A stretch of 64,000 nucleotides of DNA, taken from contig NZ_AUME01000012.1 of the NCBI RefSeq assembly GCF_000430525.1, positions 1 through 64,000 of the forward strand, read 5' to 3'. The notes beneath the pieces are model-generated. The model did not search any database. It worked only from the letters and a program-made list of their open reading frames with translations, and was not told the origin of the DNA. This DNA comes from Prevotella corporis DSM 18810 = JCM 8529 (GTDB taxonomy: Bacteria > Bacteroidota > Bacteroidia > Bacteroidales > Bacteroidaceae). This document shows, one piece after another, positions 11,174-34,079 of this stretch. Both the position numbers and the translations under genes were made by a program. Numbering within the stretch: the stretch's first letter is position 1; every line of letters begins with the position of its first letter.

Positions 11174-11777
11174 TAAACTCCTCCATTGTAGCTTTTACAT
11201 TAGTATTATTGGTTGTTATCCCCTGTCTCGTCAGTACCGACTTGATTGAAATTAGAATTACTCGTATATCTGTCCATATAGACAGATGATCGACATACCA
11301 AACATCATATTTGAATCTTTCCGTCCATGACAAGTTATTACGTCCGTGACATTGCGCCCACCCCGTAATTCCGGGTCTGACCTCATGTCTGCGCATTTGT
11401 TCTTCAGAATAAAGTGGAAGATATTTCACCAACAATGGGCGAGGTCCTATAAATGACATATCTCCCTTTAAAACATTAAACAACTGTGGCAACTCGTCCA
11501 ATGACGTGTTGCGCACAAATCGTCCCACTTTAGTTATGCGAAGTGTATCTAATAATAATTTTCCATCAGGGCCTCGCTTATCATTCATCGTTTTAAATTT
11601 GATGACCTTAAATATTTTGCCATATCTACCCGGGCGCTCTTGCAAAAAGATAGCACCCGCTCCCTCATTAGCAATGAGTAGCAAAAGATATACTAACAAG
11701 AGTATCGGACAGAGACAAATGATGGCTAATAAAGCGAGAATAAAATCAAATGTCCTTTTAAAAAAGTTCCTGTACAT
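11160..11777 (-). CDS. PglC-type initiating sugar (phosphoglycosyl) transferase
   Basis: A small monotopic phosphoglycosyl transferase, which moves a phospho-sugar from a UDP sugar onto undecaprenyl phosphate and starts repeat-unit synthesis at the inner membrane. From the ATG at 11777 the protein begins MYRNFFKRTFDF, then a re-entrant hydrophobic helix (about 12-36), QERPGRYGKIFKVIKFKTM (47-65), the Asp-Glu catalytic dyad at about 94-95 in SLDELPQLFNVLKG, MSFIGPRPL, and RPGITGWAQ. It is 205 residues, the family's minimal size. I prefer this start over an in-frame ATG at 11807 because its TAATG overlaps the upstream stop by one base and matches the usual N-terminus. It is the only initiating transferase seen in the locus. 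Confidence 0.92.
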   Translation of the reverse strand: MYRNFFKRTFDFILALLAIICLCPILLLVYLLLLIANEGAGAIFLQERPGRYGKIFKVIKFKTMNDKRGPDGKLLLDTLRITKVGRFVRNTSLDELPQLFNVLKGDMSFIGPRPLLVKYLPLYSEEQMRRHEVRPGITGWAQCHGRNNLSWTERFKYDVWYVDHLSIWTDIRVILISIKSVLTRQGITTNNTNVKATMEEFNGNN

Positions 11778-14628: not shown

Positions 14629-14647
14629 ATTATATATCGTTCTACTA

Positions 14648-15619
14648 TCAAAATTCTATACGTTCAAAATGAACATCACCTATCCGTGCCGCATATTCGG
14701 GAAAGGCACTCTTCCACATGCCCTCATGCCACAAACTGTAAACCTTCTGTGCCTGTGCCATGAGATAGTAGTCCGTAAACATTTTGATATTCTCACCATC
14801 ATTTGTCTGACCCGCTGTATCGATGTGCTTCGCCGTACCGGGTACGATATAAACATCCGGAATTTCCTTTTGAACGTAATGAATAAAGTGCATACTATCA
14901 GATGCTATCATCACTCTGAAATGTCGTCCATACGTCGATTCTTCCCTCATTATAATTTTCCTGATAGCACTAATTGCATTCTCTTTTAAACTTTCCTGGG
15001 CCTTCAAAGGCAACTCAGGATTTACATCTGTTTCCGTCTTGTCTCCAAGAAGATTCATAAACCGCGTATGAATTGCTATATAATCATTTCCTATTTCTGA
15101 CTGATACAAATCCAAATACTGTTGTAAATATGATGTTGGTTTAAACAACTCACGATATAATTTGCCCCATTCGAAATTACAGTTATAGTTTTTGTTCACC
15201 TCTTTCAGAGAGTCGTAGCCATAATAGAAATGCGTCTCCTGTTTCCTATTTTTGAAAAGACGTACAGGACTTTTGTATTCTCCATAAGCAATAACCGTCT
15301 GATGTGTAAATAAGTTAAAGTTCATTGACTTTTCATCTATAGTCCAATCCACGTCTACAGGTTCAAGATATTTACGTAAATCAAACGGATATGTCCAATT
15401 TATCTTGAAATCTTTTTTCTGTGCTTTAGCAACAGCATAGACGGTTATAGCCCCTTTCAGACGATCAAACATCCCCCCATGATGAATTCGCCCATCCACC
15501 ATGAATATATAGTTACCCGATTTTCTTGTCCGACCCCATAATCCAGAGCGACTGCGGAATTTCAGTTTAGGTTCTCGCCAACAAACATCCAATAGTTTAA
15601 TTAAGATACCCCTAATCAT
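14648..15619 (-). CDS. putative glycosyltransferase, fucosyltransferase-like
   Basis: A 323-residue protein with features of the O-FucT / alpha-fucosyltransferase GT-B superfamily. It has an N-terminal FMVDGRIHHGGMFDRLKG segment that fits the GG-x-x-D/N-R-L acceptor loop, IAIHTRF, the site where such enzymes place a donor-binding arginine, FRVMIASDSMHFI for the nucleotide strand, and a C-terminal MFTDYYLMAQAQKVYS helix like the one that follows the SSFS motif in relatives. The locus makes GDP-fucose (gmd and the fucose synthase gene), so a fucosyltransferase is expected, but similarity is distant and the role is inferred. It overlaps the next GT4 gene upstream by 4 bp (ATGA type). Confidence 0.6.
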   Translation of the reverse strand: MIRGILIKLLDVCWREPKLKFRSRSGLWGRTRKSGNYIFMVDGRIHHGGMFDRLKGAITVYAVAKAQKKDFKINWTYPFDLRKYLEPVDVDWTIDEKSMNFNLFTHQTVIAYGEYKSPVRLFKNRKQETHFYYGYDSLKEVNKNYNCNFEWGKLYRELFKPTSYLQQYLDLYQSEIGNDYIAIHTRFMNLLGDKTETDVNPELPLKAQESLKENAISAIRKIIMREESTYGRHFRVMIASDSMHFIHYVQKEIPDVYIVPGTAKHIDTAGQTNDGENIKMFTDYYLMAQAQKVYSLWHEGMWKSAFPEYAARIGDVHFERIEF

Positions 15620-16689
15620 TTTTGTTCGTATACATTTTTGTAACCTTCTATCATCTTGCTAATATCATAATTGAAGGCGCGTTTTCTACATTGCATTGCC
15701 GTCTGCTCATAAAAGGAAGCATCTTTGCTCAGGTGCATTATTAAAGACGCCAGCTCACCGACATCCCCGGGGTGGAACAAAAGTCCGGCATCTTTTACGA
15801 CCTCTCTCAGTCCATCAACATCTGAAGCTATTACCGGTTTCCCAGCTGCCATTCCTTCAACGGCAGCCAATCCAAATCCTTCCCAATGAGAAGAAAGCAC
15901 CACAATATTCGAGGCTTTCAACATTTGAGGGATATCGGCTCTATTTCCCCAAAATATTATATCTTTCTTCTGTAAAGTCCGATTTGCATAGTCCTGCATT
16001 TTGTCTCTTAAGTCACCATCACCAATCAACCATAATTGGAACTTATCCCGAGGCAAGCGATTCATGGCATCTATTAGCGTTTTATGGTCCTTCTGTGCTC
16101 TGAAAGCTCCCACCATAGTGATGACTATTTTATCTGCAGGACATATGTCGTATGCCACCTGGGCTTTTTGGAAAGAAGCGACGTCTATACCATTGCTAAT
16201 CGTAATCAATCTAAATGAGGATTTGTTATTATTCAGATAAATTCTAAGACGCTCCTCTGTTTTTGGACTTATACATATAATTTTCTCATATCTTTCGTAC
16301 ATCCATCTATCTATCACTCTCAACAACGGATTCTTTCGTTTTCTGTTATCCGTATTGTGTTCCGTTGTGACCAATCGTTTTCTCAAACCAATATTAGCAA
16401 TAGCAGCAAACAATTGAGGAGATGAATTGTGTGTGTGGATTACATCATATCCTTTCATAATACGTCTAAGCTTTAGAATATATCCTGGATTATAAAAACA
16501 TCGTTTTCTTGATAACGAATAGATTACACATCCAGATGATCCAAGCTCTCTATAAAGGGCTGTTTCTTCTCCATCTAAAAGACAAACATCTACTTCATAA
16601 CCTTGATTGCGCAACATCTGTGTTATTTGCACAACAAGATGTTCTGCACCCCCGATCATTAGTGATGTTATGATTTGGAGTACTCTCAT
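15616..16689 (-). CDS. glycosyltransferase family 4
   Basis: A compact 357-residue GT-B enzyme. It has the N-terminal glycine-rich loop in IITSLMIGGAEHLVVQI, YDVIHTHNSSPQLFAAIA, LVTTEHNT, and the C-terminal donor site IVVLSSHWEGFGLAAVEGMA with the conserved E-x7-E spacing, followed by GKPVIASDVDGLREVV. It should transfer a hexose or deoxyhexose to the growing lipid-linked oligosaccharide. It overlaps both neighbours by 4 bp, which indicates tight operon packing and coupled translation. The donor sugar cannot be deduced. Confidence 0.9.
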   Translation of the reverse strand: MRVLQIITSLMIGGAEHLVVQITQMLRNQGYEVDVCLLDGEETALYRELGSSGCVIYSLSRKRCFYNPGYILKLRRIMKGYDVIHTHNSSPQLFAAIANIGLRKRLVTTEHNTDNRKRKNPLLRVIDRWMYERYEKIICISPKTEERLRIYLNNNKSSFRLITISNGIDVASFQKAQVAYDICPADKIVITMVGAFRAQKDHKTLIDAMNRLPRDKFQLWLIGDGDLRDKMQDYANRTLQKKDIIFWGNRADIPQMLKASNIVVLSSHWEGFGLAAVEGMAAGKPVIASDVDGLREVVKDAGLLFHPGDVGELASLIMHLSKDASFYEQTAMQCRKRAFNYDISKMIEGYKNVYEQK

Positions 16690-17657
16690 GACAAAATAAA
16701 ATTGGGAATAGTCCTAAATATTTTCTTAGCTTCTTTATATCCGTCCATATTACCTTTTATAAAATCTGTAACAACCCGAAAGTTTGCAGATAAGATAGCA
16801 AAAACAAGATGAACAAGTAATTGCTCTATTTGCTTAACCGAAAAACTGACGAGAATCCTTTTCTTTTGCCATCCATTTAAATTATTTAAATCATAACAAC
16901 TTCTATACCATAGAAGAAACATGGCTTTTGCTCGCCGGTAATACTTGTCATTGGACTCCTGAAACAGACTGCTTGAACTTTTTGCATCCATGTGAACAGC
17001 TCCGCTATCATAAGAAACCAATAACCGAAAGCCGTTTTTATATAGTTTTTGAAACATAAGTTGGTCATCACCAAAAGCAAAGCCCATCCGGTCTAACCAC
17101 AACTCATCAGGATAATGAATCCTCAATAAAGCGCCTTTTCTCCATAATGATATTGGCCCCGCAGCACTTTGAGAATGGTAAGCGCTCTTAGAGGGGTTAC
17201 CATTATACGAAAAGCTTGCATTATCCAATACTTTAAACGCCCATTCGTCATCTTTACGTGGATAACTAAAATTAGTGATATAATTATATATTTTTGTTTT
17301 CAAATTATCCTCATGAGGCCTGAAAACATCCGCTGCTATACAATCACCCTGTTGTTCGTTTAATTCTTTATACAATGTTTCAACACAGTTCTCCGCCATA
17401 AAGACATCATCATCAAGAAGCAAAATCCATTCTGTTTGTATTTCCTTATAATCTATTGCTCTTTGAGCAACCATACCCTTCTTGACATAAACATATTCTT
17501 CGTCTTCAATCCTAAAATCAGGCAATTTGTATCCTTCTGCGATATAAAGTAAGACTTTTTTAGGCCTTATCGTCTGTTTATAGATGGAACACAATTCTTT
17601 TTTTAATCTATCTCCTGATTTTCCAAGCGTTCGTATGGCAACACTGTACTCTACCAT
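16686..17657 (-). CDS. glycosyltransferase family 2
   Basis: An inverting GT-A enzyme of 323 residues. The nucleotide-binding start SVAIRTLGKSGDRLKKEL is followed by a short donor domain with the metal-binding motif WILLLDDDVFMAENCVETL (about 97-115). A later WLDRMGFAFGDDQLMFQKL supplies the catalytic Asp pair (in place of the common ED). Its C-terminus has hydrophobic segments that may associate with the membrane. It lacks the usual PVYN opening found in the other GT2 genes here, so it belongs to a different GT2 subgroup. It overlaps the downstream GT4 by 4 bp. Confidence 0.85.
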   Translation of the reverse strand: MVEYSVAIRTLGKSGDRLKKELCSIYKQTIRPKKVLLYIAEGYKLPDFRIEDEEYVYVKKGMVAQRAIDYKEIQTEWILLLDDDVFMAENCVETLYKELNEQQGDCIAADVFRPHEDNLKTKIYNYITNFSYPRKDDEWAFKVLDNASFSYNGNPSKSAYHSQSAAGPISLWRKGALLRIHYPDELWLDRMGFAFGDDQLMFQKLYKNGFRLLVSYDSGAVHMDAKSSSSLFQESNDKYYRRAKAMFLLWYRSCYDLNNLNGWQKKRILVSFSVKQIEQLLVHLVFAILSANFRVVTDFIKGNMDGYKEAKKIFRTIPNFILS

Positions 17658-17660
17658 GTC

Positions 17661-18542
17661 TTACTTATTATACTTATAATTCCAATACAAATACACCAAA
17701 TAGCCTATAGGGTAACAAATGAGCAGCAAGGACTTATATGGAATATCAAACGTTTCCTTGAAATTCTTATGCGAGAAAAAGGAATATACAGAATATAATA
17801 TTCCACTTTTAATCCTATCCCTCATAGGATATGTTTTATCCATTAATATCAAATTAAATGCCATTCCGCCTTTCGGACATTTTATTCGAAGCCTTCGCCC
17901 GGATTTAGTTAACCCACCTTCCAAATATTCTGTTAGATATATTATTTTATTTATAAACAACATATCAGCTATTTTAGAAATTTGGAGCCAAAGATAACTT
18001 TCAACGAGAAATTTTTCACCTTTATAAACTGGGAATCTGTAACGCTTCAAGTATTTTGTTGCCCACACCTCGGCCTTATCCCCATACACTTTTTTATTCA
18101 CTCTGACATCAGCAAAACTATCTATGAGCTTGTCTTTCGGGAATATATCGCCGATTGGAACTTCTTGGGAATATCCTCTGAGATAAGATATACCACATAA
18201 ATCCTTACCCTTGACTTTTCTCCAATCCTCTTCTATTGTTTCAATAGCATTATTAGTCAAGGTGTCGTCACTATCTACAATAAAAAAAAGCTCCGTTTCA
18301 ACGATGTCAATAGCAAGATTCAGTGCAGTATGCTTCCCTCCGTTCTCTTTTCTTTGATATTCTATATTAAAAATATCAGATTTCATTCCGTTTACAACAT
18401 CTGTTGTATTATCGGTCGAACCATCGTCTATAATCAGCCAAGTGAATCCCCCCACAGTTTGACTACACAAGCTCCTGTAAAGGGTTTGCAAATGAGTGGC
18501 TCTATTATAAGTTGGTGTTACCACTGTCACTCCGTTTTCCAT
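17661..18542 (-). CDS. glycosyltransferase family 2
   Basis: A 293-residue GT-A enzyme: VTVVTPTYNRATHLQTLYRS at the N-terminus, WLIIDDGSTDNT (about 35-46), KHTALNLAI, and the DXD site FFIVDSDDTL (about 87-96). A C-terminal hydrophobic stretch (LLLICYPIGYLVYLYW) may anchor it to the membrane. It works with the two GT2s beside it in repeat-unit assembly. The first 16 bp overlap the end of the gene upstream. The donor is unknown. Confidence 0.9.
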   Translation of the reverse strand: MENGVTVVTPTYNRATHLQTLYRSLCSQTVGGFTWLIIDDGSTDNTTDVVNGMKSDIFNIEYQRKENGGKHTALNLAIDIVETELFFIVDSDDTLTNNAIETIEEDWRKVKGKDLCGISYLRGYSQEVPIGDIFPKDKLIDSFADVRVNKKVYGDKAEVWATKYLKRYRFPVYKGEKFLVESYLWLQISKIADMLFINKIIYLTEYLEGGLTKSGRRLRIKCPKGGMAFNLILMDKTYPMRDRIKSGILYSVYSFFSHKNFKETFDIPYKSLLLICYPIGYLVYLYWNYKYNK

Positions 18543-19561
18543 ACTTTTTTCTTTATTCTATTGATATAATAAGGGACTATGATATAATCAAAGATACCAC
18601 TACAAAATCTGTATATAAAAAAATTATATAGTGATAAATTCATCAGGAAACATTGTATCTTTACCCTTGGAGATTGATTCCATACCATAAAAGGATAGAA
18701 TTTATTTTTGACGATACGCTTCTTTAATAGCTTGAACTCAGACCTCTTATAGTCAGACGTGAACATACGTGTCCAAGTGGACTGCTTTTTAAAGTTAATA
18801 GATGAGAGACAGGCAGACAAAGCTTCTTCATCTTCACGAATAATAGAAGTCATAAGTTCTCTCATCACATCCTCATACGAGAGCAAATTATGATCTGTGC
18901 AAATTCTGGAATGTTCTCTATCTCTTTTATTAATCGCGCTCCCCTCTCTTAATACATATCGATAAATGTTAGCTTGGTTTGAAACCACGTAAGGATTATG
19001 TAAGAAAACAGTGGATACGAACAGCACATCTTCCGAGAATCTATAGTTCTTAAACCGAATTTTATTCTCGTTTAAAAAGGTTCTACGATAAAGAAACGTC
19101 CAAATAAAAGCAGGGAGTCCTCCTCTTCTAATCATTTCCAACGCCGGAGCGTCGTAGACTATCTGATTAACAATAGGCTTAACATTTCGCCCATCATAAT
19201 CTGAAAAATAGCGTACAACGTCTATATCTTTTCTATCCCATATAGGTTTTAAGACTTCGTGCATGCCGTTCTCTAAAAGATAGTCGTCTGAGTCAACAAA
19301 TGCAATATATTCACCCAATGCATTATCTATCCCTTTATTCCTTGCAATGCCTACACCAGAGTTCGGTTGTGAAAAAACACGTATGTTAGCATACCTGTCA
19401 GCATAGTCTGTGCATAAACCTAAAGAACGGTCAGTGCTCCCATCATTGATAAGCAATATTTCATAATCTTCATCCTTTAAGCCTTGATTCAGCAAAGACG
19501 ATAGGCATTTGGGAAGATATTTTTCTACATTATATACTGGAACTATTATACTTAATTTCAT
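18527..19561 (-). CDS. glycosyltransferase family 2
   Basis: A 344-residue GT-A enzyme of the common capsule type. It has LSIIVPVYNVEKYLPKCLSS, ILLINDGSTDRSL, SGVGIARNKGIDNALGEYI, and the metal-binding YIAFVDSDDYL near residue 90. The region around FKNYRFSEDVLFVSTVF provides the catalytic ED pair, and a Lys/Arg-rich C-terminus follows. It sits directly after the EpsG-like polymerase gene. Its stop lies inside the next gene's first codons, so translation is probably coupled. Confidence 0.92.
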   Translation of the reverse strand: MKLSIIVPVYNVEKYLPKCLSSLLNQGLKDEDYEILLINDGSTDRSLGLCTDYADRYANIRVFSQPNSGVGIARNKGIDNALGEYIAFVDSDDYLLENGMHEVLKPIWDRKDIDVVRYFSDYDGRNVKPIVNQIVYDAPALEMIRRGGLPAFIWTFLYRRTFLNENKIRFKNYRFSEDVLFVSTVFLHNPYVVSNQANIYRYVLREGSAINKRDREHSRICTDHNLLSYEDVMRELMTSIIREDEEALSACLSSINFKKQSTWTRMFTSDYKRSEFKLLKKRIVKNKFYPFMVWNQSPRVKIQCFLMNLSLYNFFIYRFCSGIFDYIIVPYYINRIKKKVWKTE

Positions 19562-19566
19562 ATATA

Positions 19567-20739
19567 TTATTTAATATCTATTACTTTACGATACAATTTG
19601 TCATTAGTGTAGTTCACATCATACTCATTTTCTTCATAGATTTCATAAACTCCTGATGGGTAACCATTTGTCAAAAAGGTTTTATATGGCGTCAAATTAA
19701 ACGCCCATGATCTTAAAACACGAGTAAATAAAACAAAACATAAAAATATAACAAAAGTTTTCATCCACTTATAACTATGTATCCTTGTTGAAAGGGCGCT
19801 TAAAGTATATATTAGACCTATAAAATAAAACCAGCCAAAACGTCCGCCCTGTCCAAAACGGGCAAAAGCTACCAAAATACCACAAAAGACAATGAACATA
19901 TTAAGAAACGTCAAATCTTTAGGTGTCTTGGGTATTTTATGATAGTTCTTAAAAAGTATTCCAATAAACACGATTGCTTCTATCACATACCAAATTTGAA
20001 AACCGGACATCTTGTCATTGGTATATAATGCTGTTCTGGATTCTGTTCCTGTTGCATCACCTGCAAGAGATATTGCCCAAGAAGCAAATGGAGATATTCC
20101 TAATAATAAACAGAATACGAGGAAATAAATTACTATACTTGGTGAATATTTTATAATAGGTACAAAGTACATCGGAGCAAGTACAAGAGCCGAATTGTGA
20201 AACCCTGCGGCCAATATCACCAAAGCAAAAAACGGTATAGGTTTCCGTTCCCATATATACTTTACGGCTTGCCAAGCTATACCACAAGCTATGGTCTGTC
20301 TCATGTAAGTTATGGAAAAAAATACAAATAAGCCAAGGAAAACAATGCACGCCATCGGATAATTATCCATATACTTTCGGAACGCCCTATAATACAATCC
20401 ATACATCAGGCAAGTTCCCAGCAGAATAAACACATATCGGTTAGACGTAACATGAGCAACTAACACTTCCCAGGCAAAGTAGGCATACTCCTTTCCACGG
20501 ATGAAATAAAGTAACTTATTGACATCTTGTTTATAACTTACTGAGTCGGATATACTGTCAAACAACGCACCGTAAATATACCGATCATACCCTCCTATCA
20601 TATCTCCCATACCTATAAAAACAGCCAAATAGGCGAAATAGGCAGCCAATAAGAGAGGACTTTTAGCCAGTTCTGGTCTTGATAATGAAGAATAATACCA
20701 TAAAAAGGCTATAGCGAACATTAAGAAATAGATGATCAT
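19567..20739 (-). CDS. EpsG/Wzy-type polysaccharide polymerase
   Basis: A 390-residue integral membrane protein with about ten predicted hydrophobic segments. The motif YMRQTIACGIAWQAVKYI, followed about 20 residues later by AAGFHNSALVLAPMYF, is the EpsG-family signature (RQ...A followed by FH-S). MIGGYDRYIYGALF near residue 47 fits its first periplasmic loop. EpsG-like proteins replace Wzy in many Bacteroidetes loci and join lipid-linked repeat units at the periplasmic face. This is the only polymerase candidate I see, and a Wzx flippase is encoded about 8 kb upstream in the same direction. It overlaps the acyltransferase gene by 4 bp. Confidence 0.85.
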   Translation of the reverse strand: MIIYFLMFAIAFLWYYSSLSRPELAKSPLLLAAYFAYLAVFIGMGDMIGGYDRYIYGALFDSISDSVSYKQDVNKLLYFIRGKEYAYFAWEVLVAHVTSNRYVFILLGTCLMYGLYYRAFRKYMDNYPMACIVFLGLFVFFSITYMRQTIACGIAWQAVKYIWERKPIPFFALVILAAGFHNSALVLAPMYFVPIIKYSPSIVIYFLVFCLLLGISPFASWAISLAGDATGTESRTALYTNDKMSGFQIWYVIEAIVFIGILFKNYHKIPKTPKDLTFLNMFIVFCGILVAFARFGQGGRFGWFYFIGLIYTLSALSTRIHSYKWMKTFVIFLCFVLFTRVLRSWAFNLTPYKTFLTNGYPSGVYEIYEENEYDVNYTNDKLYRKVIDIK

Positions 20740-21764
20740 TTTTGTTGATAGATGTTATGTTGCAAAAGATTCCACATCCCAATCCTGATTTGGTCTATAA
20801 ATACACAAAACAGATATACGGCAGACAGGAACAGAAAGATACCAAGTACAAGTAAGCCTCCATCCAATGTAGATGTGAAATAGAGAACACCTCTTTTAAA
20901 GAATTTAAAAACGTATGGATTGAAATGAACTATATAAACCGCAAAGCTACTTGCCGCCAGCCAATTAACAACCGGACTTTGAAACCTGAATTTACAGAAA
21001 AACAATAATAATGCCATGCTTGATAAAATAATCAATGGATTATCATAACGTAGCATTTTCATGGCATTCCCGAATTTCCATACTGATAGCACCACTATTA
21101 TACTTATAAAACAGGTAATTGCAATATAGACATAAAGGCTCAATCGGTTTAACCGACCCGACGGATAAAGTCTGAAATATCGTGCTGTGAGATATAGGCC
21201 ACAAAAGAATATAATGCTATAGCCGCCAAAGTAATTGACAACTCCGGTAATCCAGCAATAATAACATTGATAAATATAAAATGTTATTAAGAACATTTGG
21301 AACAGTCGTTTATTTACTTTTTCCACAAAAGCATTTAGAACCGGTGATAAAATGTAAAGTCCCAAATATCCCATCACAAACCAATACTCTTGTGTAAGCC
21401 CCATGCTTATTCGTATTCCTTGAGAATCAAAAGTCGTTTCTCCACAAAGAACGGCAACTATGTATATACCCCATAACAAGAAGAAAAATTGAAAAAGGAG
21501 CTTAGCCAGTCCTCTATAATTCGCCCGGACTCCAAACCAACCGGAGATAAGCACAAATATATTTACTCCCCCTATAGCAATACTCATAAAGAGAATCCTG
21601 ATAAAAGAAGACAGCGTAGCAGTTTCTATCTCAACCGGCGACACCATTCCCATAACGACACCATTTGCATGCCCTATAAGAACGAAGAACATGGCTATGA
21701 TACGCAGTAGTTCGATATTGCTCTGTCTGACTTTTGTCTTTACAGCTATCTCTTTTTCAACCAT
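20736..21764 (-). CDS. acyltransferase family 3 (glycan O-acyltransferase)
   Basis: A 342-residue membrane protein of the AT3 family with about ten transmembrane helices. The N-terminal SNIELLRIIAMFFVLIGHANG carries the family's Arg21 and catalytic His32, with Glu18 where Asp is common. The motif QEYWFVMGYLGLYILSPVLN in the middle is the other hallmark. AT3 proteins move acetyl or other acyl groups onto surface sugars, either before or after flipping. This is one of three AT3 genes in the locus and, unlike the other two, has no long G tract. It overlaps both neighbours. Confidence 0.9.
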   Translation of the reverse strand: MVEKEIAVKTKVRQSNIELLRIIAMFFVLIGHANGVVMGMVSPVEIETATLSSFIRILFMSIAIGGVNIFVLISGWFGVRANYRGLAKLLFQFFFLLWGIYIVAVLCGETTFDSQGIRISMGLTQEYWFVMGYLGLYILSPVLNAFVEKVNKRLFQMFLITFYIYQCYYCWITGVVNYFGGYSIIFFCGLYLTARYFRLYPSGRLNRLSLYVYIAITCFISIIVVLSVWKFGNAMKMLRYDNPLIILSSMALLLFFCKFRFQSPVVNWLAASSFAVYIVHFNPYVFKFFKRGVLYFTSTLDGGLLVLGIFLFLSAVYLFCVFIDQIRIGMWNLLQHNIYQQK

Positions 21765-22732
21765 AATACAAACACATCAATATAAATTGACATAATCCTG
21801 AAAAATTTAATGTTGACAATTCGGGAAAAAATACGATGCCTTTTATTCACAGGCAATGGATGAATGGGGAAAGCCCCCATAGCTTCCAATTTCGTCATCA
21901 CATCCAACTTATATCTCAGCGTAAAAGGAACTACATATATTGAAAACAAATAGCCCATAAGGAAAAATATAAGAGGTTTCTTCAAAACTCTTTGGACATC
22001 AGGGTTGAACTGTCTGAGCCACGTAAAGTTATCTTCTAAACAAAGCAATGAGTCGTCGGAGGATCTATATATATGCTTTCTAGAAGATTCAGATACAGCC
22101 GAATGAGGGTTGGCGATATAATTGTAAAGAGGCTGATTGATGCATTTGCACTTTCCAATGTATGGAATTAATTTGAAAATCACATCAAAGTCCTCGCCCA
22201 TTTGATAACTATTAAACCTTATATCATGCTCTCGTATAATACTTGTTCTGTACACACGTGTCCATAAAGAGTTGTTATACACGTCGTGGGCTGTCATGTC
22301 CAACCCAGAGTTGAAATCTCCTATGCATGGAATGATTCTGCCACTGGTTTCCGTTCCCCAGTAATAGCCCATCATCAGCATGTCATATTCATCTTTTTTC
22401 AATAGCTGGAGCAAGAGCTCTAAGGAATTATCGGCTACAAAATCATCTGCATCCACAAACCAAAAATAAGTGCCATGAGCATTAGCTATCAGTTCGTTCC
22501 GAGTAAGGCCAATTCCTTTATTTTCCCGCGAATAGTATCTTATGTTGTGAAATCTTTCATTATACGATTGAATAATACGTAAAGAGTTATCTTTCGACCC
22601 ATCATTGATGACGACTATCTCAACATCTTCTCTAAAAAAAGATTGACCAACAATACTATCCAAGCATCGTCTCAGGAACTTTTCGGCATTGTAGACAGGA
22701 ATAAGAATAGACAAAAGAACTTCTTGATTCAT
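21746..22732 (-). CDS. glycosyltransferase family 2
   Basis: A 328-residue GT-A enzyme: LSILIPVYNAEKFLRRCLDS, VVINDGSKDNSL, GIGLTRNELIANAHGTYF, and WFVDADDFVADNSLELLL with the DAD metal site near residue 95. NSYQMGEDFDVIFKL supplies the catalytic ED pair. A hydrophobic C-terminal segment may bind the membrane. Its ATG overlaps the previous stop by one base (TAATG), and its 3' end overlaps the acyltransferase gene by 19 bp. The donor is unknown. Confidence 0.92.
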   Translation of the reverse strand: MNQEVLLSILIPVYNAEKFLRRCLDSIVGQSFFREDVEIVVINDGSKDNSLRIIQSYNERFHNIRYYSRENKGIGLTRNELIANAHGTYFWFVDADDFVADNSLELLLQLLKKDEYDMLMMGYYWGTETSGRIIPCIGDFNSGLDMTAHDVYNNSLWTRVYRTSIIREHDIRFNSYQMGEDFDVIFKLIPYIGKCKCINQPLYNYIANPHSAVSESSRKHIYRSSDDSLLCLEDNFTWLRQFNPDVQRVLKKPLIFFLMGYLFSIYVVPFTLRYKLDVMTKLEAMGAFPIHPLPVNKRHRIFSRIVNIKFFRIMSIYIDVFVLWLKKR

Positions 22733-23679
22733 TATAAGAATTTATAAAGATTATATATAACCCTTCTGTAAAAAGGTACATCACTTTTTATTGTTGGTAT
22801 ACCAGACATATTCATCAACACATTGATACGCTTCATATATTGTTTGATATCACGGTACGAATAATGATTTCTGAAAAGAGAATATACCATATTATAACAT
22901 TCATCCTTTATATGTCTCATTAGCAAATACTTATTGGATACTTTATCCAGATAAGCAGCCTTCTTTTCAAGTATCGTTATACTGTCGCTCACTCGTTTTG
23001 TCCCCCATGTCGATCGACTGATAGAATTTGTATCACCTATATAATATAGATAAGTAATATGTGGACATAAAACCAAAGAACTAACGTATGTAGAAATCTC
23101 AAAACTCCACATCACGTCTTCATGATAAATCCCGGGAGTAAAATAAGTGTGGTGCACATCAAATATAGTTTTTTTAATTAATTTGTTGCATCCAATAACA
23201 TACCACTCATTATTGATATAACCTTGAAACACATCAGTGTTGGTCATAAAACTTTTTGTCTGAGCAGCACTCACGGAAACTTGATTCCCCAAATTATCCA
23301 CTTCCTTGGTGACTCCCATAACAATCTCCGGCAAATTGTTCTCCTTTGCCGTTTTTACAAGTTTTGCTATACAGTTCTCCGTTATCCTGTCGTCACTATC
23401 CAAAAAATATATATAATCGCCTGTACTGTTGTTTATTCCAGTATTTCTTGCCTGGGAGAGTCCCTCATTTTGACGATGCTCAAGAAGTTTAAAATCTACA
23501 TTTCCCTCATAAGTCTCTATCAACTTTTTTGCTTTGACAAAACTCCCGTCAGGTGTACAATCATTAACGATAATACATTCTATATTCACATAAGTTTGAT
23601 TGAATACCGACCGCAAACAACGCTCTATGTATTTTTCTACCTTATATACTGGTATGACGATGCTAACTTTTATTTCCAT
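22732..23679 (-). CDS. glycosyltransferase family 2
   Basis: A 315-residue GT-A enzyme: VSIVIPVYKVEKYIERCLRS, CIIVNDCTPDGS (in place of the usual DDGS), GLSQARNTGINNSTGDYI, and YFLDSDDRI near residue 95. YHEDVMWSFEI near the middle carries the ED pair. Glycosyltransferases with DCTPDGS are common in Bacteroidetes capsule loci. It overlaps the DUF1919 gene by 17 bp upstream and the next GT2 by one base downstream. Confidence 0.92.
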   Translation of the reverse strand: MEIKVSIVIPVYKVEKYIERCLRSVFNQTYVNIECIIVNDCTPDGSFVKAKKLIETYEGNVDFKLLEHRQNEGLSQARNTGINNSTGDYIYFLDSDDRITENCIAKLVKTAKENNLPEIVMGVTKEVDNLGNQVSVSAAQTKSFMTNTDVFQGYINNEWYVIGCNKLIKKTIFDVHHTYFTPGIYHEDVMWSFEISTYVSSLVLCPHITYLYYIGDTNSISRSTWGTKRVSDSITILEKKAAYLDKVSNKYLLMRHIKDECYNMVYSLFRNHYSYRDIKQYMKRINVLMNMSGIPTIKSDVPFYRRVIYNLYKFL

Positions 23680-24640: not shown

Positions 24641-25765
24641 TTATGAATCAAATGTAATAGCGGCACGTTTTAACACGCGCTCTATCTTTTCAGATATTAA
24701 ACGTATGGTGTAATTTATTCCTGAAATCTCAAATATTTTTTTTCTTAACCAATCGATACATATACATATTGTGAAAATTATAAAGCAGCTCGTTAACATT
24801 TTGAATATAAACATACTGTCATTAAGCATTCCTTGCCATACGAATATCTTCTCCCATAATATTTTCCTCACCATCACATTATCACTTATCAGATAGACTG
24901 CAAGTGTATATGGAGCTATCTTAACGAGGCATCTTGTCAAAACATTTTCTTTTATGGTTAAACCTCTGACCCAAAGAAAGACATAGAGCGAGAAAAAAAA
25001 CAAAAAACCATTATAGCTAAAACCAAAAGGTGTAATACTCGTACCATGAAATACAGAGATAAGTATAGCCATCAAGGCATGATATGTAAAAGTAATAACC
25101 GCAGCGACAATGGCTTTTCTGCCATATTGATTCAAACTTTTTGCATATAGTCTAACATAACCAGCAACCAAATATAAAAAAATAAACCACAATAATCCAT
25201 AACTTCCACCAAAAGTGTCACCTAAAGGGAACTTCACTAATAAAGTTAAGCTTATTCCTCCCAATCCTATTAATGTCAACAAATACTTGCTTTTACTAAC
25301 ATGATGAACAAAGACATTCAAGACTGGAACAAAAATGAGCAAACCCATATAATTGGTCATAAACCAATATTCCTTAAAAGTGATAGGAAATACTGCGTTT
25401 ATCAGCTCTTTTATTTGGAAAGCTTGTAAGCCCATACAACATAAGACCACATACAAACCCACAGCATAAAACAACACCTCAACCCATAATACAGTTAACC
25501 TGTTCAGCTTAAAAGGTTTTGTTATCATAAAATAGCCTGTTATCATAACATAACAATTCACTGCAATATGGCATATCTCATATACAATTTCTGACATAAT
25601 GAAATTATACGTAGACAAAGACCACCACATTGCCCCCCCCGAGTAAATCTCAAAATGTTTATACAAACCATGAGTAAAGCAATGTAATACCACAATTCCA
25701 AACATTGCAGCTACTCTAAGCAAATCGAAATTGATTAAACGCTTCTGTAAATTGTACGTGTCCAT
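24641..25765 (-). CDS. acyltransferase family 3 with G8 tract
   Basis: A 374-residue AT3 membrane protein. It has NFDLLRVAAMFGIVVLHCFT with Asp14, Arg17 and catalytic His28, ICHIAVNCYVMITGYFMI, and KEYWFMTNYMGLLIFVPVLN, then about seven further hydrophobic helices. It should O-acylate a sugar of the repeat unit at the inner membrane. A run of eight G on the coding strand (C8 on plus, 25633-25640) lies at about codon 42, in IYSGGAMWW; it is in frame here. Slippage there would truncate the protein, so expression may be phase variable. The gene separates an intact pyruvyltransferase gene from the remnant of a second copy, which suggests it arrived by recombination. Confidence 0.9.
   Translation of the reverse strand: MDTYNLQKRLINFDLLRVAAMFGIVVLHCFTHGLYKHFEIYSGGAMWWSLSTYNFIMSEIVYEICHIAVNCYVMITGYFMITKPFKLNRLTVLWVEVLFYAVGLYVVLCCMGLQAFQIKELINAVFPITFKEYWFMTNYMGLLIFVPVLNVFVHHVSKSKYLLTLIGLGGISLTLLVKFPLGDTFGGSYGLLWFIFLYLVAGYVRLYAKSLNQYGRKAIVAAVITFTYHALMAILISVFHGTSITPFGFSYNGFLFFFSLYVFLWVRGLTIKENVLTRCLVKIAPYTLAVYLISDNVMVRKILWEKIFVWQGMLNDSMFIFKMLTSCFIIFTICICIDWLRKKIFEISGINYTIRLISEKIERVLKRAAITFDS
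25633..25640. repeat. C8/G8 homopolymer tract inside acyltransferase
   Basis: Eight C on plus, in an AT-rich gene, near codon 42 of the acyltransferase at 24641-25765. Tracts of this kind are typical slipped-strand mispairing sites. Confidence 0.9.
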
Positions 25766-25799: not shown

Positions 25800-26918
25800 T
25801 TAATTAGAAACCTGCTCTACCATAACATCCAATTGCCGCAACGACATCATTTTATGTTTTTTATACTTCAATGTGTTAGCTTTAAACTGGTATAATTTTC
25901 TTCTATCATAGTTTACATGACTTGTGAAAGATGTTATGGCTTTTTCATTACCAACTTTCTTCATTAGGGTTGTGAGCCGTCCATCCTTATCATTATCCGT
26001 CTTGACAACGGCTAACAACGGCTTCTCAAATACAGTTGCAAATGCCGTTCCATGAAAAGACGTTGTTATCACGAACTTGGCATGCTGAAACAGCCAAATA
26101 AACTCGCATGGTCCAATATGTTCTATGGACAGACAATGGGAATCATAGACTGTATATTTACCACCAATATAAACAACCGGTAATCCTAAGGTTTCAGCAA
26201 CATTCCTTACAATATTGTTCACTTCAGGAAACGGATTGAACATGTAATCCAAGATGTAAACTAAAAGATATGGATCATGAATATCAAGTCGAGGTTTCTT
26301 TGCTATTTTGATATAGTCTTCCTGATCCAGCAAAAGCGTTGGATCACAGACAACAGGAGCCTTTCGTCCGTCAAGCAATTCCTTGACTATCTTTTCTCCG
26401 GAGTTTTCCCGTACTGTTATATGTTTATATTGTTGTAAGTATTTTTTATAGATAGGTTTGCTCTCCTCCGGAATTGCATCTACCGCAAAACTTGACGCAT
26501 AGGATATTTTCTTCTCGTTTCTCACAAAGGAAAGTAAAAAATTAGTATCGTCTTTCATCCATAGAGGATTCCAAACTTGGTCGCTTCCTGTCATATAGAG
26601 ATCGTATACAGGAGAATCCGACAGAATAGATTCTCTGGTGTATGTCTTGTCAGATAACGCCAAGAACTGTTTGCGAAATGCTTTGAAATAGCTTTCTTTC
26701 TTTTTTGCGAAAAAAGCTCTGGTCCTCATTTCATATATTTTCTTTCTAAGAAAGAGGTTTGCCCTCATCAAAAGAGGGACATCTGTTTCATGAGGAAAGA
26801 CATAGTCTATAATCTCATTGTCATAACCCAATTTCAATAAGGCCTGCTGAAGTGCATACGCTTGTAAGGCAGAACCGAAATTGAGTACTCGATGCATGGT
26901 AATGATTCCTATTTTCAC
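25800..26918 (-). CDS. polysaccharide pyruvyltransferase family protein
   Basis: A 372-residue GT-B-like enzyme of the CsaB/WcaK family. It has GIITMHRVLNFGSALQAYAL with the N-terminal N-x-G-x-x-L-Q-x-Y pattern, YMTGSDQVWNP (about 109-119), SYASSFAVD, ITVRENSG, VVCDPTLLL, and VITTSFHGTAFATVFEKPLL at the donor site. The family transfers pyruvyl from phosphoenolpyruvate onto sugars as a ketal. In Bacteroidetes loci such proteins are very often encoded next to an F420-hydrogenase-beta-like protein, as here, with a 4-bp overlap. The exact acceptor is unknown, and members of this subgroup have not all been shown to use pyruvate. Confidence 0.87.
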   Translation of the reverse strand: MKIGIITMHRVLNFGSALQAYALQQALLKLGYDNEIIDYVFPHETDVPLLMRANLFLRKKIYEMRTRAFFAKKKESYFKAFRKQFLALSDKTYTRESILSDSPVYDLYMTGSDQVWNPLWMKDDTNFLLSFVRNEKKISYASSFAVDAIPEESKPIYKKYLQQYKHITVRENSGEKIVKELLDGRKAPVVCDPTLLLDQEDYIKIAKKPRLDIHDPYLLVYILDYMFNPFPEVNNIVRNVAETLGLPVVYIGGKYTVYDSHCLSIEHIGPCEFIWLFQHAKFVITTSFHGTAFATVFEKPLLAVVKTDNDKDGRLTTLMKKVGNEKAITSFTSHVNYDRRKLYQFKANTLKYKKHKMMSLRQLDVMVEQVSN

Positions 26919-28057
26919 TTTCCCTGTTTTTGTTTTATTTTATACTTCAATATTGATGGAATGCTCAAATAAAACTGAACTTTTGTAAGCATATCCCACG
27001 TTTTCTGGGAATGTTTCTGGCTTCGATTCAATAATACTCTTATGACAGGATATAATAATGCGTTTCCTACATTCTGCTTCATTTGCCCCTCTGCAACAAC
27101 TTCAAAAGGATGTGACCTCAAAGTGCAACGCTCCAATTCCCTTAAAATTTGTTTACCTTTTTCCGTAAAGGCTATGGCTGCACTGACGCCTTTTTCATCA
27201 TCTTTATAGGTATTTCCCCACAAATCTCCTATCCGAATATCTGCTGACGAAGCCCTATACTTGAACTTGCAATCTTTCACACAGGCCGGATTCATACACC
27301 AATCGCCTAAAAAGAGAAGGTAGAATAAATCGCCCTTCGACATTAAACTATAAACTTCCTTGGTCTTTCCTTGCAAGTTCATTGCCCATGAATCATGCCA
27401 ACCGGTCCGTTTGTTTCGCCAGGTAACCGAGCGTAAACCATCCACTTTAGGTTGGTTAATGTGTAGATAGTTATACCACATCCACATGGACGGGACACCA
27501 TGACAGAAGAAGTCCACCAATACAAAATTGTCTTCTTTTCTGAACTTTCTAACGTAACGTCGAAAAGAATCTATCTGGCAGGGTGTTCCGGTAATCACAT
27601 GCTTCTCTTTCAGATTTATAGTCTTGAAGGCTTCAAAAGTATAACTTTGAATATATTTAGAGCCTATCGATGCCTTGTAATCTTCGATATTGTCAGCTAT
27701 ATAATGCTCTGCACGTCGATTTTCTACGTTATATCTAACGCCACATGCTTTATATCCCTTACCTATTAAATATCTCCCGATTTCGAAACCTACCCCGCCG
27801 GAGGAGGCCTGCTGTCTTATATTGTCATCATTGCTCCACGAAGCATAACTTGCGGTTTCCGTATTCTCCAGACTTAATCCAGGATTGATAAAACTGCATA
27901 CATTTCGACATATTGCACAATCAATACATCGGCTTTCATCAACCTGAGGCTCGTAAAATCCGTTTTTATTTAATTTGATGGATATTGTGGTCTTGGGACA
28001 AGCTGTTGCACATACCCCACAGCCAAAACAATCTTTTACATCAGATACGTTCTTCAT
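26915..28057 (-). CDS. F420-hydrogenase/dehydrogenase beta-subunit-like ferredoxin protein
   Basis: A 380-residue iron-sulfur protein. Two CxxCxxCxxxC clusters at the N-terminus (Cys10, 13, 16, 20 and Cys44, 47, 50, 54) form a 2x[4Fe-4S] ferredoxin domain. The F420-hydrogenase beta N- and C-terminal domains follow, with ITGTPCQIDSFRRYV, VDFFCHGVPS, and an extra cysteine-containing WCMNPACVKDCKFKYRASSA before IGDLWG. Related proteins reduce F420 or flavins, but in capsule loci they accompany pyruvyltransferases and their substrate is unknown. The cysteine sets look complete. It overlaps the flippase gene by 4 bp upstream and the pyruvyltransferase by 4 bp downstream. Confidence 0.85.
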   Translation of the reverse strand: MKNVSDVKDCFGCGVCATACPKTTISIKLNKNGFYEPQVDESRCIDCAICRNVCSFINPGLSLENTETASYASWSNDDNIRQQASSGGVGFEIGRYLIGKGYKACGVRYNVENRRAEHYIADNIEDYKASIGSKYIQSYTFEAFKTINLKEKHVITGTPCQIDSFRRYVRKFRKEDNFVLVDFFCHGVPSMWMWYNYLHINQPKVDGLRSVTWRNKRTGWHDSWAMNLQGKTKEVYSLMSKGDLFYLLFLGDWCMNPACVKDCKFKYRASSADIRIGDLWGNTYKDDEKGVSAAIAFTEKGKQILRELERCTLRSHPFEVVAEGQMKQNVGNALLYPVIRVLLNRSQKHSQKTWDMLTKVQFYLSIPSILKYKIKQKQGK

Positions 28058-29586
28058 TTGTGTATAATAACCTCAATTAAATGTTTGATAGTATTTCTCT
28101 CTCCCTCGTTTAGGATAAAAGTGTAAGCAGCTAAAAAAACAAAACATGCGGGAAAAATAAAGACACTGATAAAGCGAAATGTAGGACTAACAATTTGATT
28201 CATAATCATTAATCCTATCATTAAAGAAAAAAAACCTATAAGAGTAATTGGGAGATAGGTTTTACAGATAAAACGCCTAATTGAAAGCGTCGGCATACAT
28301 TGATTCAGATTGATTAAATTGATTATACCAGAAGCTATTGGTATGTACAAACAAACTATCAAAACTAATGTATAAGAATGAAAGTATAACAGCAAAAAAT
28401 AGGCAATTGGTAAGCGAAGTAAAAATAATATACCATTGGCTACATTTACATAGCGAACATATCCGCTCGCAGTTATTGCAGTATATACCAAAGGAGTAAA
28501 ACTATTAAAAAAATTTGATATCAATGCTATCTGACAAATAGCAACAGCTCCTTCTGGTATCTCAACGAGCCACCAGCCCATTAATGTTTCCATTTCGCAA
28601 ATCACTGGTACAGAAACCAACAATATCATCAATGATGAAAATTTTGCGCCCAAATTAATGAGAAAATCTACACGCTCATAATTTTGTTGTGCGTATTCCT
28701 TTATAATCTGTGGATTAAATGCTGCTGATATGTTTCCTATAAATGAATAGAGAATGGATTGAACCTGATTAGCCACTCCAACCGCAGCATTTATAATTGT
28801 ACCGTAGAAATTATTAAATATTATATTTGTTCCTTGCTGTGACAATGTCAAAGAAGTACTGCCAAATAGAGTCCATCCAGAAAATCTTATCATCTCACGG
28901 AATATGGACCAATCTATTTGGAATATAAGTTTACTCTCTTGAAAATAATGGGTTGAATAAAAACGATAGAATATAATAACAGCAACCGTTATGAATGCGT
29001 AAAGAAGACTATAGAGGATCAAATGGTCGTATGAAGAATATAACACAATAATGGCTATGAGCAATTTCAAACATGATGTTAAAATGTCGATGGCTGCAAA
29101 AACACCAAATCGCTCATGTGAAATAATCAGCGAATTATAAGGAACCTGAAGTATACCTAAAATTGTCGAGATTACGGCAGCTTGATAAACCCAATTGGCT
29201 GCAGTTAATCTCTCAAGAGGGATCACCAACTGATAATTCACGAACCACAGACCTATTGTCTCTGCTAATACTAAAAATAATAATGATAAAACTATGTGAA
29301 TAAAAACAGCAGTAGAAAAAGTTTTTTGTAATTCTTTGAAAACGCCCTGTCCTAAACTATAGGTAAGAAATCTGGATGTAGCACCATTAAGAGCCGTGCT
29401 TACCATATTCACTAAAACCACAAACCCACCGACTATATTGTATACTCCATAATCAGAAACACCAAGAGCTTTCAGCACTACTCGTGAAGTGTAAAAGCCA
29501 ATTACCATACTTACAAACATCCGTAAGTATAGCATCATTGCATTTTTTGCAATAGCCCTATTCCCTGTCGGTCGGTGATGATACAT
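28054..29586 (-). CDS. Wzx-type oligosaccharide flippase
   Basis: A 510-residue membrane protein with about 12-14 hydrophobic helices, the usual size and shape of the MOP/PST flippases. The N-terminal RAIAKNAMMLYLRMFVSMVI and GVSDYGVYNIVGGFVVLV strings are typical of Bacteroidetes Wzx proteins, and ALNGATSRFLTYSLG follows in the second helix pair. It moves the finished undecaprenyl-linked repeat unit to the periplasm for the EpsG-type polymerase. It is the only flippase in the locus. A roughly 300-bp gap precedes it, which may hold a promoter, but I see no TAnnTTTG box. Confidence 0.9.
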   Translation of the reverse strand: MYHHRPTGNRAIAKNAMMLYLRMFVSMVIGFYTSRVVLKALGVSDYGVYNIVGGFVVLVNMVSTALNGATSRFLTYSLGQGVFKELQKTFSTAVFIHIVLSLLFLVLAETIGLWFVNYQLVIPLERLTAANWVYQAAVISTILGILQVPYNSLIISHERFGVFAAIDILTSCLKLLIAIIVLYSSYDHLILYSLLYAFITVAVIIFYRFYSTHYFQESKLIFQIDWSIFREMIRFSGWTLFGSTSLTLSQQGTNIIFNNFYGTIINAAVGVANQVQSILYSFIGNISAAFNPQIIKEYAQQNYERVDFLINLGAKFSSLMILLVSVPVICEMETLMGWWLVEIPEGAVAICQIALISNFFNSFTPLVYTAITASGYVRYVNVANGILFLLRLPIAYFLLLYFHSYTLVLIVCLYIPIASGIINLINLNQCMPTLSIRRFICKTYLPITLIGFFSLMIGLMIMNQIVSPTFRFISVFIFPACFVFLAAYTFILNEGERNTIKHLIEVIIHK

Positions 29587-30792: not shown

Positions 30793-32226
30793 TTAAAACT
30801 GAAAATAAATAAAAGATTTTCCTTCTAATGCTCCAAATAAAATAATATACGAAATGAGGAAAATAACAGTCATAAGTCTGACTACTGTGCAATTAGAACT
30901 CATAAAATATCTATGATGACAAAATTCATTCAACGAATCTTTCAATATCATTATTGCCGTTGAAACTAAGCCCACCGTAAAAACTCGAGGATCAATAAGC
31001 GCAATATTTCCAAACCCTTTTTCCATTTGCGAAAAAATAATACTGTAATCCAACAAAGAGTTTATACGAAAGAGTTGCCAAGCAAGGCTTACTATAATAA
31101 ACGTTAGAATGATAGACACTGCTCTCCTTAATCCTTCAGGATGGTATTTGCGACTGTGCTTTAGAATCGATTGCGACCAAAGCTTATGAGCACACAAGGC
31201 TATCCCATGCAGAAATCCCCATACCATAAAGTTGAGTGCGGCGCCATGCCACATACCACACAGAGTCATAGCTACCATTTGGTTAATATACATTCTGATT
31301 TTTCCCTTCCGGTTTCCACCCAATGGAATATAAATATAATCTCGTATCCACGAAGATAAGGTTATATGCCATTTTCGCCAAAAATCGGTTACAGAATCCG
31401 CAAAATATGGTCGATTAAAGTTTTCGGAAACCTTGATTCCCATTATTTGAGCAACTCCTATTGCCATGTTCGAATAACCATTAAAATCTGCATAGATCTG
31501 AAACGAATATAGAACTGTCGCGAACAGGATAGAAGATATGTTATGTTCTGATAAATTGTTAAATACTGCATCTGTGTAAGAAACAAGAACGTCAGCAATA
31601 CATAATTTGGTAAACATACCCCAAAGTACCCGCTTTAATCCTTCTGACACATGGCCGAAATTGATCAAACGTCGATGATACAATTGTGGAATGAAGGTAT
31701 TGGGACGATCAATGGGCCCAGACATAATCGTGGGGAAAAATGCGATATAGGTCGCGAAAGTTATAAAATCGGTTGCAGTGCTTATATTTCCCCTGCGTAT
31801 CTCAACGAGATAGCTAATTAACTTAAAAGTAAAGAAACTTATACCAAAGGGCAAAACAATCTTGAAAGTACTATAATTCGTTTGTAACCCAATCAACGAA
31901 AATAGATTGGCAAAGCCTTCTATGAAGAAATTAAGATATTTAAAGTAAAGCAGCAAAACTACTCCTAAAATAACTCCAAAGGCTGTTAATTTTGATGCAT
32001 ACTTTGATCTTTCGTGTATAGAGTGGGCTATCGCATTTCCAAGATAATAGAATATTGCAGTAACGATGAATAACAGTATAGCCATTCTCCAATCAGCCCA
32101 TCCATAAAAAATATAGGAAGCCAACAGAAGTAATACATTTTGTTTTCTTCCGCTATTAAGTAAGGTGAAATATGGCAACAATACTATAATGAAAAAGAGC
32201 CAAAAAATGATAGAATTGATAAGCAT
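30793..32226 (-). CDS. MBOAT O-acyltransferase (AlgI/DltB-like)
   Basis: A 477-residue polytopic membrane protein. It has SYIFYGWADWRMAILLF near the N-terminus, LPFGISFFTFKLISYLVE, GPIDRPNTFIPQL, FQIYADFNGYSNMAIG, NFNRPYFADSVTDFWRKWHI with the first conserved His, IYIPLGGNRKG, and GMWHGAALNFMVWGFLHG with the catalytic His. These are the signature elements of AlgI, PatA and DltB. Such proteins carry an activated acyl group across the inner membrane to a partner that esterifies the polymer. The SGNH-like gene next downstream is the likely partner. The family call is secure; the acyl group and target are not known. Confidence 0.93.
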   Translation of the reverse strand: MLINSIIFWLFFIIVLLPYFTLLNSGRKQNVLLLLASYIFYGWADWRMAILLFIVTAIFYYLGNAIAHSIHERSKYASKLTAFGVILGVVLLLYFKYLNFFIEGFANLFSLIGLQTNYSTFKIVLPFGISFFTFKLISYLVEIRRGNISTATDFITFATYIAFFPTIMSGPIDRPNTFIPQLYHRRLINFGHVSEGLKRVLWGMFTKLCIADVLVSYTDAVFNNLSEHNISSILFATVLYSFQIYADFNGYSNMAIGVAQIMGIKVSENFNRPYFADSVTDFWRKWHITLSSWIRDYIYIPLGGNRKGKIRMYINQMVAMTLCGMWHGAALNFMVWGFLHGIALCAHKLWSQSILKHSRKYHPEGLRRAVSIILTFIIVSLAWQLFRINSLLDYSIIFSQMEKGFGNIALIDPRVFTVGLVSTAIMILKDSLNEFCHHRYFMSSNCTVVRLMTVIFLISYIILFGALEGKSFIYFQF

Positions 32227-32304
32227 TTCTTGTTATTATTAACTTAGTCCCTTATATTAATATTAATGCTGATTGGTATATTTTCCCTTATAACCATTTA
32301 TCTT

Positions 32305-33273
32305 TTATGCATATTGCCCACCATAAAACATATTATTTACCCATTGGCTTCTTGATGTAAATCTTACTATATAGTAGGAGATAAAGGTGAAAACTATGCC
32401 AATAATAGGCAGTATGACCAAATCTTCAAGAACTCCTATTTCAGAAACCTGAAAAAACGGAATAGCAACAGCTAAACGTTCAAGCACGAAAATCTGAACG
32501 ACATAGATGCCCAACGTGTATTTTCCTATATTCGACAACTCATCTATCATTTTTGATGGTGAAGCAATAGAACATACAGTTTTGCATATACCTAAACATA
32601 GCATTGAACCAGCAAGCCCTACGATATATTCCGTAATGATATAGGTCGGCATTGATGTAATGGCTTGCAATGTTACTTTATCCACAGCGCGCCCTTTTCC
32701 AAGTAAGATTAAAAGAGTAAACACAATGAGTGACAAGAACGTTATTAGCTTTGTGTGTTTATCGTAACATTGATAATGTTTTCGCAAGAAATATCCGGTC
32801 CAAAAGAACAGAAGATAATAGTTTATCATCAGGCTTCCACCGTATGGGATTGCTAGCATTGCTACAGAAGATATTGCACAAGCCGTGACATCATTGCGAA
32901 TCACTTTTTTACTTATATACACCACTATATAGCAGGCAAACAGGCATTTTAGAAACCATACGCCTCCATAAAGTTCGCACATATACCCCCCCCCATTAGC
33001 ATACGCTATCGCTGCCAAAAGCAAAGAGTCTACTACAGACGGTACAAGTAGTTGTTTACACTTTTTTATCAGAAAGTGTTTGAATGGCAACAAAAATGAG
33101 CTATGAGAAAAGAAACCACACATCGTCATGAACAATGACATGTGGAAAGAATAAATGATAGGACGAACCTTGCTCTGCATTTCATCGCCAAAATAATACG
33201 CATGCCCAACGCACACTAAAGTAATCGCCAAAAATTTAGCAAGATCAAAATAGATGATTCGCTGCTTGCTCAT
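32305..33273 (-). CDS. acyltransferase family 3 with G9 tract
   Basis: A 322-residue AT3 membrane protein: IYFDLAKFLAITLVCVGHAY with Asp10, Lys13 in place of the usual Arg, and catalytic His24; then SFHMSLFMTMCGFF and GGVWFLKCLFACYIV. Several hydrophobic helices follow. It belongs to the small OatA-like branch without an extra domain. A run of nine G on the coding strand (C9 on plus, 32986-32994) lies near codon 94, in YANGGGYMC; it is in frame here, so the gene is ON in this sequence. The gene sits at the border between the glycan genes and the accessory island. Its acceptor sugar is unknown. Confidence 0.88.
   Translation of the reverse strand: MSKQRIIYFDLAKFLAITLVCVGHAYYFGDEMQSKVRPIIYSFHMSLFMTMCGFFSHSSFLLPFKHFLIKKCKQLLVPSVVDSLLLAAIAYANGGGYMCELYGGVWFLKCLFACYIVVYISKKVIRNDVTACAISSVAMLAIPYGGSLMINYYLLFFWTGYFLRKHYQCYDKHTKLITFLSLIVFTLLILLGKGRAVDKVTLQAITSMPTYIITEYIVGLAGSMLCLGICKTVCSIASPSKMIDELSNIGKYTLGIYVVQIFVLERLAVAIPFFQVSEIGVLEDLVILPIIGIVFTFISYYIVRFTSRSQWVNNMFYGGQYA
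32986..32994. repeat. C9/G9 homopolymer tract inside acyltransferase
   Basis: Nine C on plus at about codon 94 of the acyltransferase at 32305-33273. This is the longest C or G run I found in the window, and a candidate slippage site. Confidence 0.9.
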
Positions 33274-34071: not shown

Positions 34072-34079
34072 TTCCCCCG

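Follow-up and report, generated by a model that had tools for sequence, protein, structure and literature searches.

Homopolymeric G tracts in acyltransferase genes of a Prevotella corporis surface-polysaccharide locus as candidate contingency tracts

Gene content of the polysaccharide locus and its two G tracts

The DNA analyzed here (hereafter, the window) is a 64-kb stretch of contig NZ_AUME01000012.1 from Prevotella corporis DSM 18810, whose genome assembly comprises 2.8 Mb in 84 contigs. Its minus strand carries an initiating sugar transferase gene (Bac_transf; 11160..11807), several GT4 and GT2 glycosyltransferase genes (13354..23679), and genes for an EpsG-type polysaccharide polymerase (19567..20739), a polysaccharide pyruvyl transferase (25800..26918), and a polysaccharide flippase (MatE/Polysacc_synt; 28054..29586). 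The same strand encodes three acyltransferases of family PF01757, the membrane acyltransferases AT3-1 (32305..33273, 322 aa) and AT3-2 (24641..25765, 374 aa) and a third, AT3-3 (20736..21764), as well as an MBOAT-family O-acyltransferase (30793..32226). The MBOAT gene adjoins AT3-1 downstream, and the pyruvyl transferase gene lies immediately upstream of AT3-2. We conclude from this gene content that the locus is a surface-polysaccharide locus, be it for a capsule, an exopolysaccharide, or an O-antigen. The initial annotation had spoken of capsule O-acetyl groups; the flippase, the EpsG-type polymerase, and the initiating sugar transferase are indeed present, whereas "capsule" and "acetyl" were assumed.

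A PRiA4_ORF3-like gene (35650–36627) borders the polysaccharide locus and is conserved in position across the four related loci; its end in the window apparently lies outside the annotated frame. A conserved block at 35650–35770 was considered as an operon leader RNA and rejected, as it has no Rfam match and resembles the coding end of the PRiA4_ORF3 gene. When the region around AT3-1 (29600–37100) was searched for an invertible promoter, only weak, AT-rich inverted repeats were detected, and no match to the Bacteroides-type −33/−7 promoter was obtained in the same interval. An invertible promoter was therefore rejected for lack of a convincing candidate near AT3-1.

AT3-1 matches PF01757 over nearly the entire profile (E = 1.3e-20; 74.2 bits against a cut-off of 31; positions 2–325 of 326). 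At 32986..32994, nine consecutive Gs on its coding strand (C9 on the plus strand) spell GGG GGG GGG, in frame (ON), and encode exactly Gly94–Gly96, close to where the initial annotation had placed the run (near codon 94). The tract is the longest C/G run within the window, as had been claimed. Computed loss or gain of one base shortens the product from 322 aa to 107 aa (G8) or 121 aa (G10). In an AlphaFold model (pLDDT 88.6), residues 93–97 form a loop between helices 64–92 and 98–103, and the region of the Gly run is length-variable in an alignment of homologues. The best PDB matches to the model are human HGSNAT structures (probability 1.0, but E = 0.04 and TM 0.55). AT3 proteins share an R-X10-H motif in helix 1 (PMC9833829). 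At this site AT3-1 has Lys13-X10-His24: the His is kept and Lys, invariant across 12 aligned homologues, replaces the Arg.

The second-longest C/G run of the window, followed only by runs of six, is a G8 tract at 25633..25640 (C8 on the plus strand), located around codons 42–44 of AT3-2 and likewise in frame (ON). AT3-2 scores 61 bits against PF01757 and contains the complete motif (Arg17-X10-His28); its computed off-frame products are 68 or 53 aa long compared with 374 aa for the full protein. Hence the earlier claim of two tracts in two acyltransferase genes of one locus is borne out. So is the claim that the GT2, GT4, and polymerase genes have no such runs: C/G runs of at least 8 are absent from the GT2, GT4, EpsG-type polymerase, flippase, AT3-3, and MBOAT genes of the window, and AT3-3 has no G/C run of at least 7.

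Long G/C runs in the genome and among AT3 genes of the genus

The entire genome contains eight G/C runs of at least 8. Besides the two in AT3-1 and AT3-2, there are a G10 in an amidase/xanthan-lyase-like gene, a G9 in a TamB-like gene, a G8 in a small Rieske-like gene, and three intergenic runs. Markov models of order 1–4 yielded 5–17 simulated runs of at least 8 per 2.8 Mb, so the eight observed represent no overall excess. Of 100 dinucleotide-shuffled versions of the window, 10 contained a C/G run of at least 9. The genome-wide run count was rejected as stand-alone evidence, since it is not above chance. The TamB-like and amidase-like tracts further indicate that long runs in this genome are not limited to acyltransferases. 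AT3 genes make up about 11 kb, or about 0.4%, of the genome, and two of the eight runs fall in them (binomial P about 5e-4, a post hoc value because the family was picked after the tracts had been seen). Thus, number and length of the runs, taken alone, are no more than expected by chance; the location of the AT3-1 and AT3-2 tracts is unexpected.

These figures bear on the simplest alternative, in which AT3-1 contains an ordinary Gly-Gly-Gly loop whose codons are all GGG by accident and no switching has been selected. Both the agreement of the eight runs with the Markov models and the presence of equally long runs in the TamB-like and amidase-like genes are what such an accident would produce, but two of eight runs falling in AT3 genes is not, and even an accidental G9 would still slip more than other sequence. 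Taking into account the genus-wide data described below, we regard the accident as unlikely, though deserving of serious consideration.

We surveyed about 120 AT3-anchored loci of the genus, leaving out the window and removing duplicates. AT3 genes were sampled regardless of tracts, by similarity to AT3-1, by Pfam score (40 consecutive rows, about 20 kb each), and by similarity to AT3-2. G/C runs of at least 8 occurred 13 times in 158 kb of AT3 ORFs and 7 times in 786 kb of other ORFs (9-fold, p = 2e-6); four of the 13 AT3 tracts are orthologous and so not independent, and at least two of the seven "other" runs lie in AT3 genes that were overlooked by the profile used in the survey. The frequency of Gly-Gly is similar in the two sets (5.1 per 1000 aa in AT3 proteins versus 4.4 elsewhere), yet Gly-Gly is spelled GGGGGG in 18 of 271 cases in AT3 genes compared with 9 of 1132 elsewhere (p = 7e-8). 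Almost without exception, the runs in the surveyed AT3 genes consist of G when read on the coding strand. No tract of at least 7 was present in the 31 AT3 genes that score best against Pfam, which restricts the enrichment to part of the family, mostly AT3-1-like members. Enrichment of this kind across the genus, in independent genomes, argues against accident.

The four orthologous tracts are informative in their own right. AT3 genes from genomes G133, G065, G004, and G185 (loci L037, L040, L041, and L051) each carry exactly G8 in the same variable loop, at only 50–66% nucleotide identity and with 27–49% identical codons at identical residues. In the G185 orthologue, these eight Gs fall into a different codon phase. 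It therefore appears that the tract was retained rather than the protein; judged from the alignments, conservation of G8 in these genes would be hard to explain by protein constraint. Retention over such diverged orthologues is also a point against an accidental homopolymer.

Alleles of AT3-1 and AT3-2 and genes split at tracts

Isolated alleles of AT3-1 with 92–95% nucleotide identity were found in three other species, Hallella colorans, H. bergensis, and KA00344, and were compared together with a more distant, degraded copy from Prevotella sp. S7-1-8 (genome G113). At the edges of AT3-1, homology with the Hallella-group loci comes to an end, and the uvrD genes of these genomes share only about 65% identity. 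Such an island of identity is the mark of a single-gene cassette that has been recently exchanged. In coordinates, window positions 32311–33280 match loci L055, L056, and L057 inside otherwise unrelated surroundings.

The H. colorans allele is 92% identical to AT3-1 over 970 bp and its tract is G8. The reading frame shifts exactly at the G8, between the two halves of the gene; both frames are otherwise open, and there is no second lesion. In contrast, the H. bergensis allele reads GGGGAGGGG at the tract site and remains in frame, before running into an assembly gap; an 800-bp break in this allele was considered as an insertion and rejected, because the assembly has only Ns there. The KA00344 allele has GAGGGG at the tract site and keeps its frame at that point, but it is interrupted by the loss of one base near codon 162, away from any tract. 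Relative to H. bergensis, the window tract differs by a GAG to GGG change (Glu to Gly). A pure G tract is thus present in two of the AT3-1 alleles compared, as G9 (ON) in the window and as G8 (OFF) in H. colorans, a difference between species. An in-frame G8 also occurs in the flippase gene of H. bergensis (L056 15535–15542).

The nearest allele of AT3-2, from genome G191 (96% nucleotide identity), reads an interrupted GGGAGGGG at the tract site; the window differs from it by a silent GGA to GGG change. No second pure-tract length was found among the AT3-2 alleles compared, and three Hallella-group genomes yielded no AT3-2 orthologue. The identity between AT3-2 and G191 is part of a longer shared block. 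Together with the interrupted sites in H. bergensis and KA00344, the G191 allele means that neither pure run has been maintained among close alleles, and this absence of the pure run fits an accidental origin.

The alleles also bear on the idea that the AT3 cassette is under loss, the H. colorans frameshift being one random lesion among several. Simple gene loss does occur, as shown by the KA00344 deletion at codon 162, away from the tract, and by the degraded S7-1-8 copy. As an account of the tracts we nevertheless think decay very unlikely: AT3-1 of the window is intact across 322 codons, the H. colorans allele has a single lesion that falls inside the tract, and the contrast between the identity island and uvrD points to a cassette that spreads rather than just decays.

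Other genomes of the genus carry AT3 genes split at their tracts. In G125, three AT3 genes (one in L151 and two neighboring ones in L275) are each divided into two frames meeting at a G9/G10 tract. In the L151 gene and the second of the two L275 genes, each half matches PF01757, and the halves follow in the correct order; in the first L275 gene a match is obtained with the long upstream part, while the short part downstream falls below threshold. G125 also has GT11, GT2, and SusC-type receptor genes split at tracts and another GT2 gene with an in-frame G9. In G144, an AT3 gene (L330) is split into two frames at its tract, as are a hexapeptide acetyltransferase gene and a pyruvyl transferase gene located close to it, the tracts being C10 or G9. 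These split genes resemble OFF states of contingency genes, and breaks that fall exactly at tracts are not what an accidental homopolymer would predict.

Homopolymers are the usual site of sequencing errors, and an error of sequencing or assembly could be behind the length differences. We find this highly improbable, because the window tract is in frame and because frame breaks at tracts turn up repeatedly in a single functional class across unrelated assemblies, in which other tract-bearing ORFs are intact.

Several further runs were recorded in these genomes. G125 (L275, L151, L280–L281, L164–L166, and L158) contains about 40 G/C runs of at least 9, many in glycan genes (AT3, GT2, GT11), and a C17 between genes. 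In G144 (L329–L332, contigs C27 and C31), a WbsX gene also has a G10 near its 3′ end. C tracts of 16 to 21 lie outside ORFs in G075 and G144 (L136 2059–2074; L322 5031; L325 3049) and are possibly promoter-linked repeats. Genome G059, although tract-rich, was set aside as support because many of its tracts are in weak ORFs or apparent repeated C-rich elements.

Candidate switching of polysaccharide acylation

Four observations, namely the out-of-frame H. colorans allele, the genus-wide enrichment in AT3 genes, the conserved G8 orthologues, and the AT3 genes split at tracts, lead us to favor the view that the G9 of AT3-1, an AT3 O-acyltransferase gene within a surface-polysaccharide locus, is probably a homopolymeric contingency tract, with both AT3-1 and AT3-2 ON in this strain. 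The initial annotation had proposed that acylation is switched. For the reasons just given, slippage-driven phase variation currently explains the data best, although the tracts of the closest relatives are interrupted at both sites.

Under this contingency reading, slipped-strand mispairing at replication would alter the number of Gs in the AT3-1 tract. G9 would correspond to ON (322 aa) and G8 or G10 to OFF, with OFF products predicted to stop soon after the third predicted long helix, lacking most of the membrane domain. As the Gly-Gly-Gly lies in a length-tolerant loop, changes of the tract by three should do no harm. Tract length would then decide whether the polymer carries acyl groups, and the G8 of AT3-2 would be expected to act as the same kind of switch. 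An early premature stop in the AT3-1 operon could also lower downstream expression. The predicted parts of this scheme are slippage and its rate, reversibility, acylation of the polymer, and a benefit through varied phage or immune targets. Combinatorial switching of AT3-1 and AT3-2 in the window strain, also part of the initial proposal, is plausible but weaker than proposed: both genes are in frame here, and the interrupted tracts of the closest relatives count against it.

A broader system is possible as well, and we put it forward tentatively. AT3 cassettes may move between species and acquire or lose uninterrupted G runs, and independent switching of several tracts per locus may yield combinatorial decoration. 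In some species the system may extend to glycosyltransferases, pyruvyl transferases, hexapeptide acetyltransferases, and SusC-type receptors. Such a genus-wide pattern would be of more interest than the single AT3-1 tract.

The switch in lot3 is a homopolymeric tract within the gene. The AT3 enzymes Lot3 (Neisseria) and OafA (Haemophilus) are phase-variable (PMC9558356, PMC3526765), and lot3 of Neisseria meningitidis resembles the genes studied here as a phase-variable AT3 O-acyltransferase gene whose product acts on a surface glycan (PMC9558356, PMC3526765). Lot3, however, modifies LOS, whereas the window contains a predicted polysaccharide locus of the Prevotella group with a candidate switch. 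Haemophilus influenzae oafA is likewise an AT3 O-acetyltransferase gene switched by an intragenic repeat (PMC9558356), but the repeats are tetranucleotides rather than G runs. In Campylobacter, phase-variable tracts are mostly G9–G10, and G8 is mutable too (PMC8355987). Capsule and LOS genes of C. jejuni share with the present case coding G8–G11 runs, ON/OFF switching by frameshift, and several such genes per locus (PMC8355987); C. jejuni has many of them per genome, unlike the window's genome with no overall excess of runs, though the relatives G125 and G144 have many. A 2025 review treats Bacteroides phase variation as inversion (PMC11868660). The invertible-promoter capsules of Bacteroides, a member of the same bacterial order, are similar in their random on/off variation of surface polysaccharide, but there DNA inversion switches entire operons, whereas here the candidate switch is a tract within the coding sequence of a gene for decoration. 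Our searches of the open-licence literature on Prevotella and other Bacteroidales turned up no description of phase variation by homopolymeric tracts. Phase-variable AT3 genes are already known elsewhere and in the Prevotella group apparently little described.

If the contingency reading is true, members of the genus would vary the acyl groups of their surface polysaccharides at random, altering phage and antibody binding while leaving the backbone unchanged, and simple-sequence slippage would take its place beside inversion, the kind of mechanism usually invoked in Bacteroidales. Acyltransferase and glycosyltransferase genes that look "broken" in Prevotella assemblies may then be OFF states rather than pseudogenes, and tract length should be readable directly in existing metagenomes. 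The TamB-like G9 (L021 3748–3756) and the amidase-like G10 (L020 4695–4704), both in frame, are suited as controls for tract mutability.
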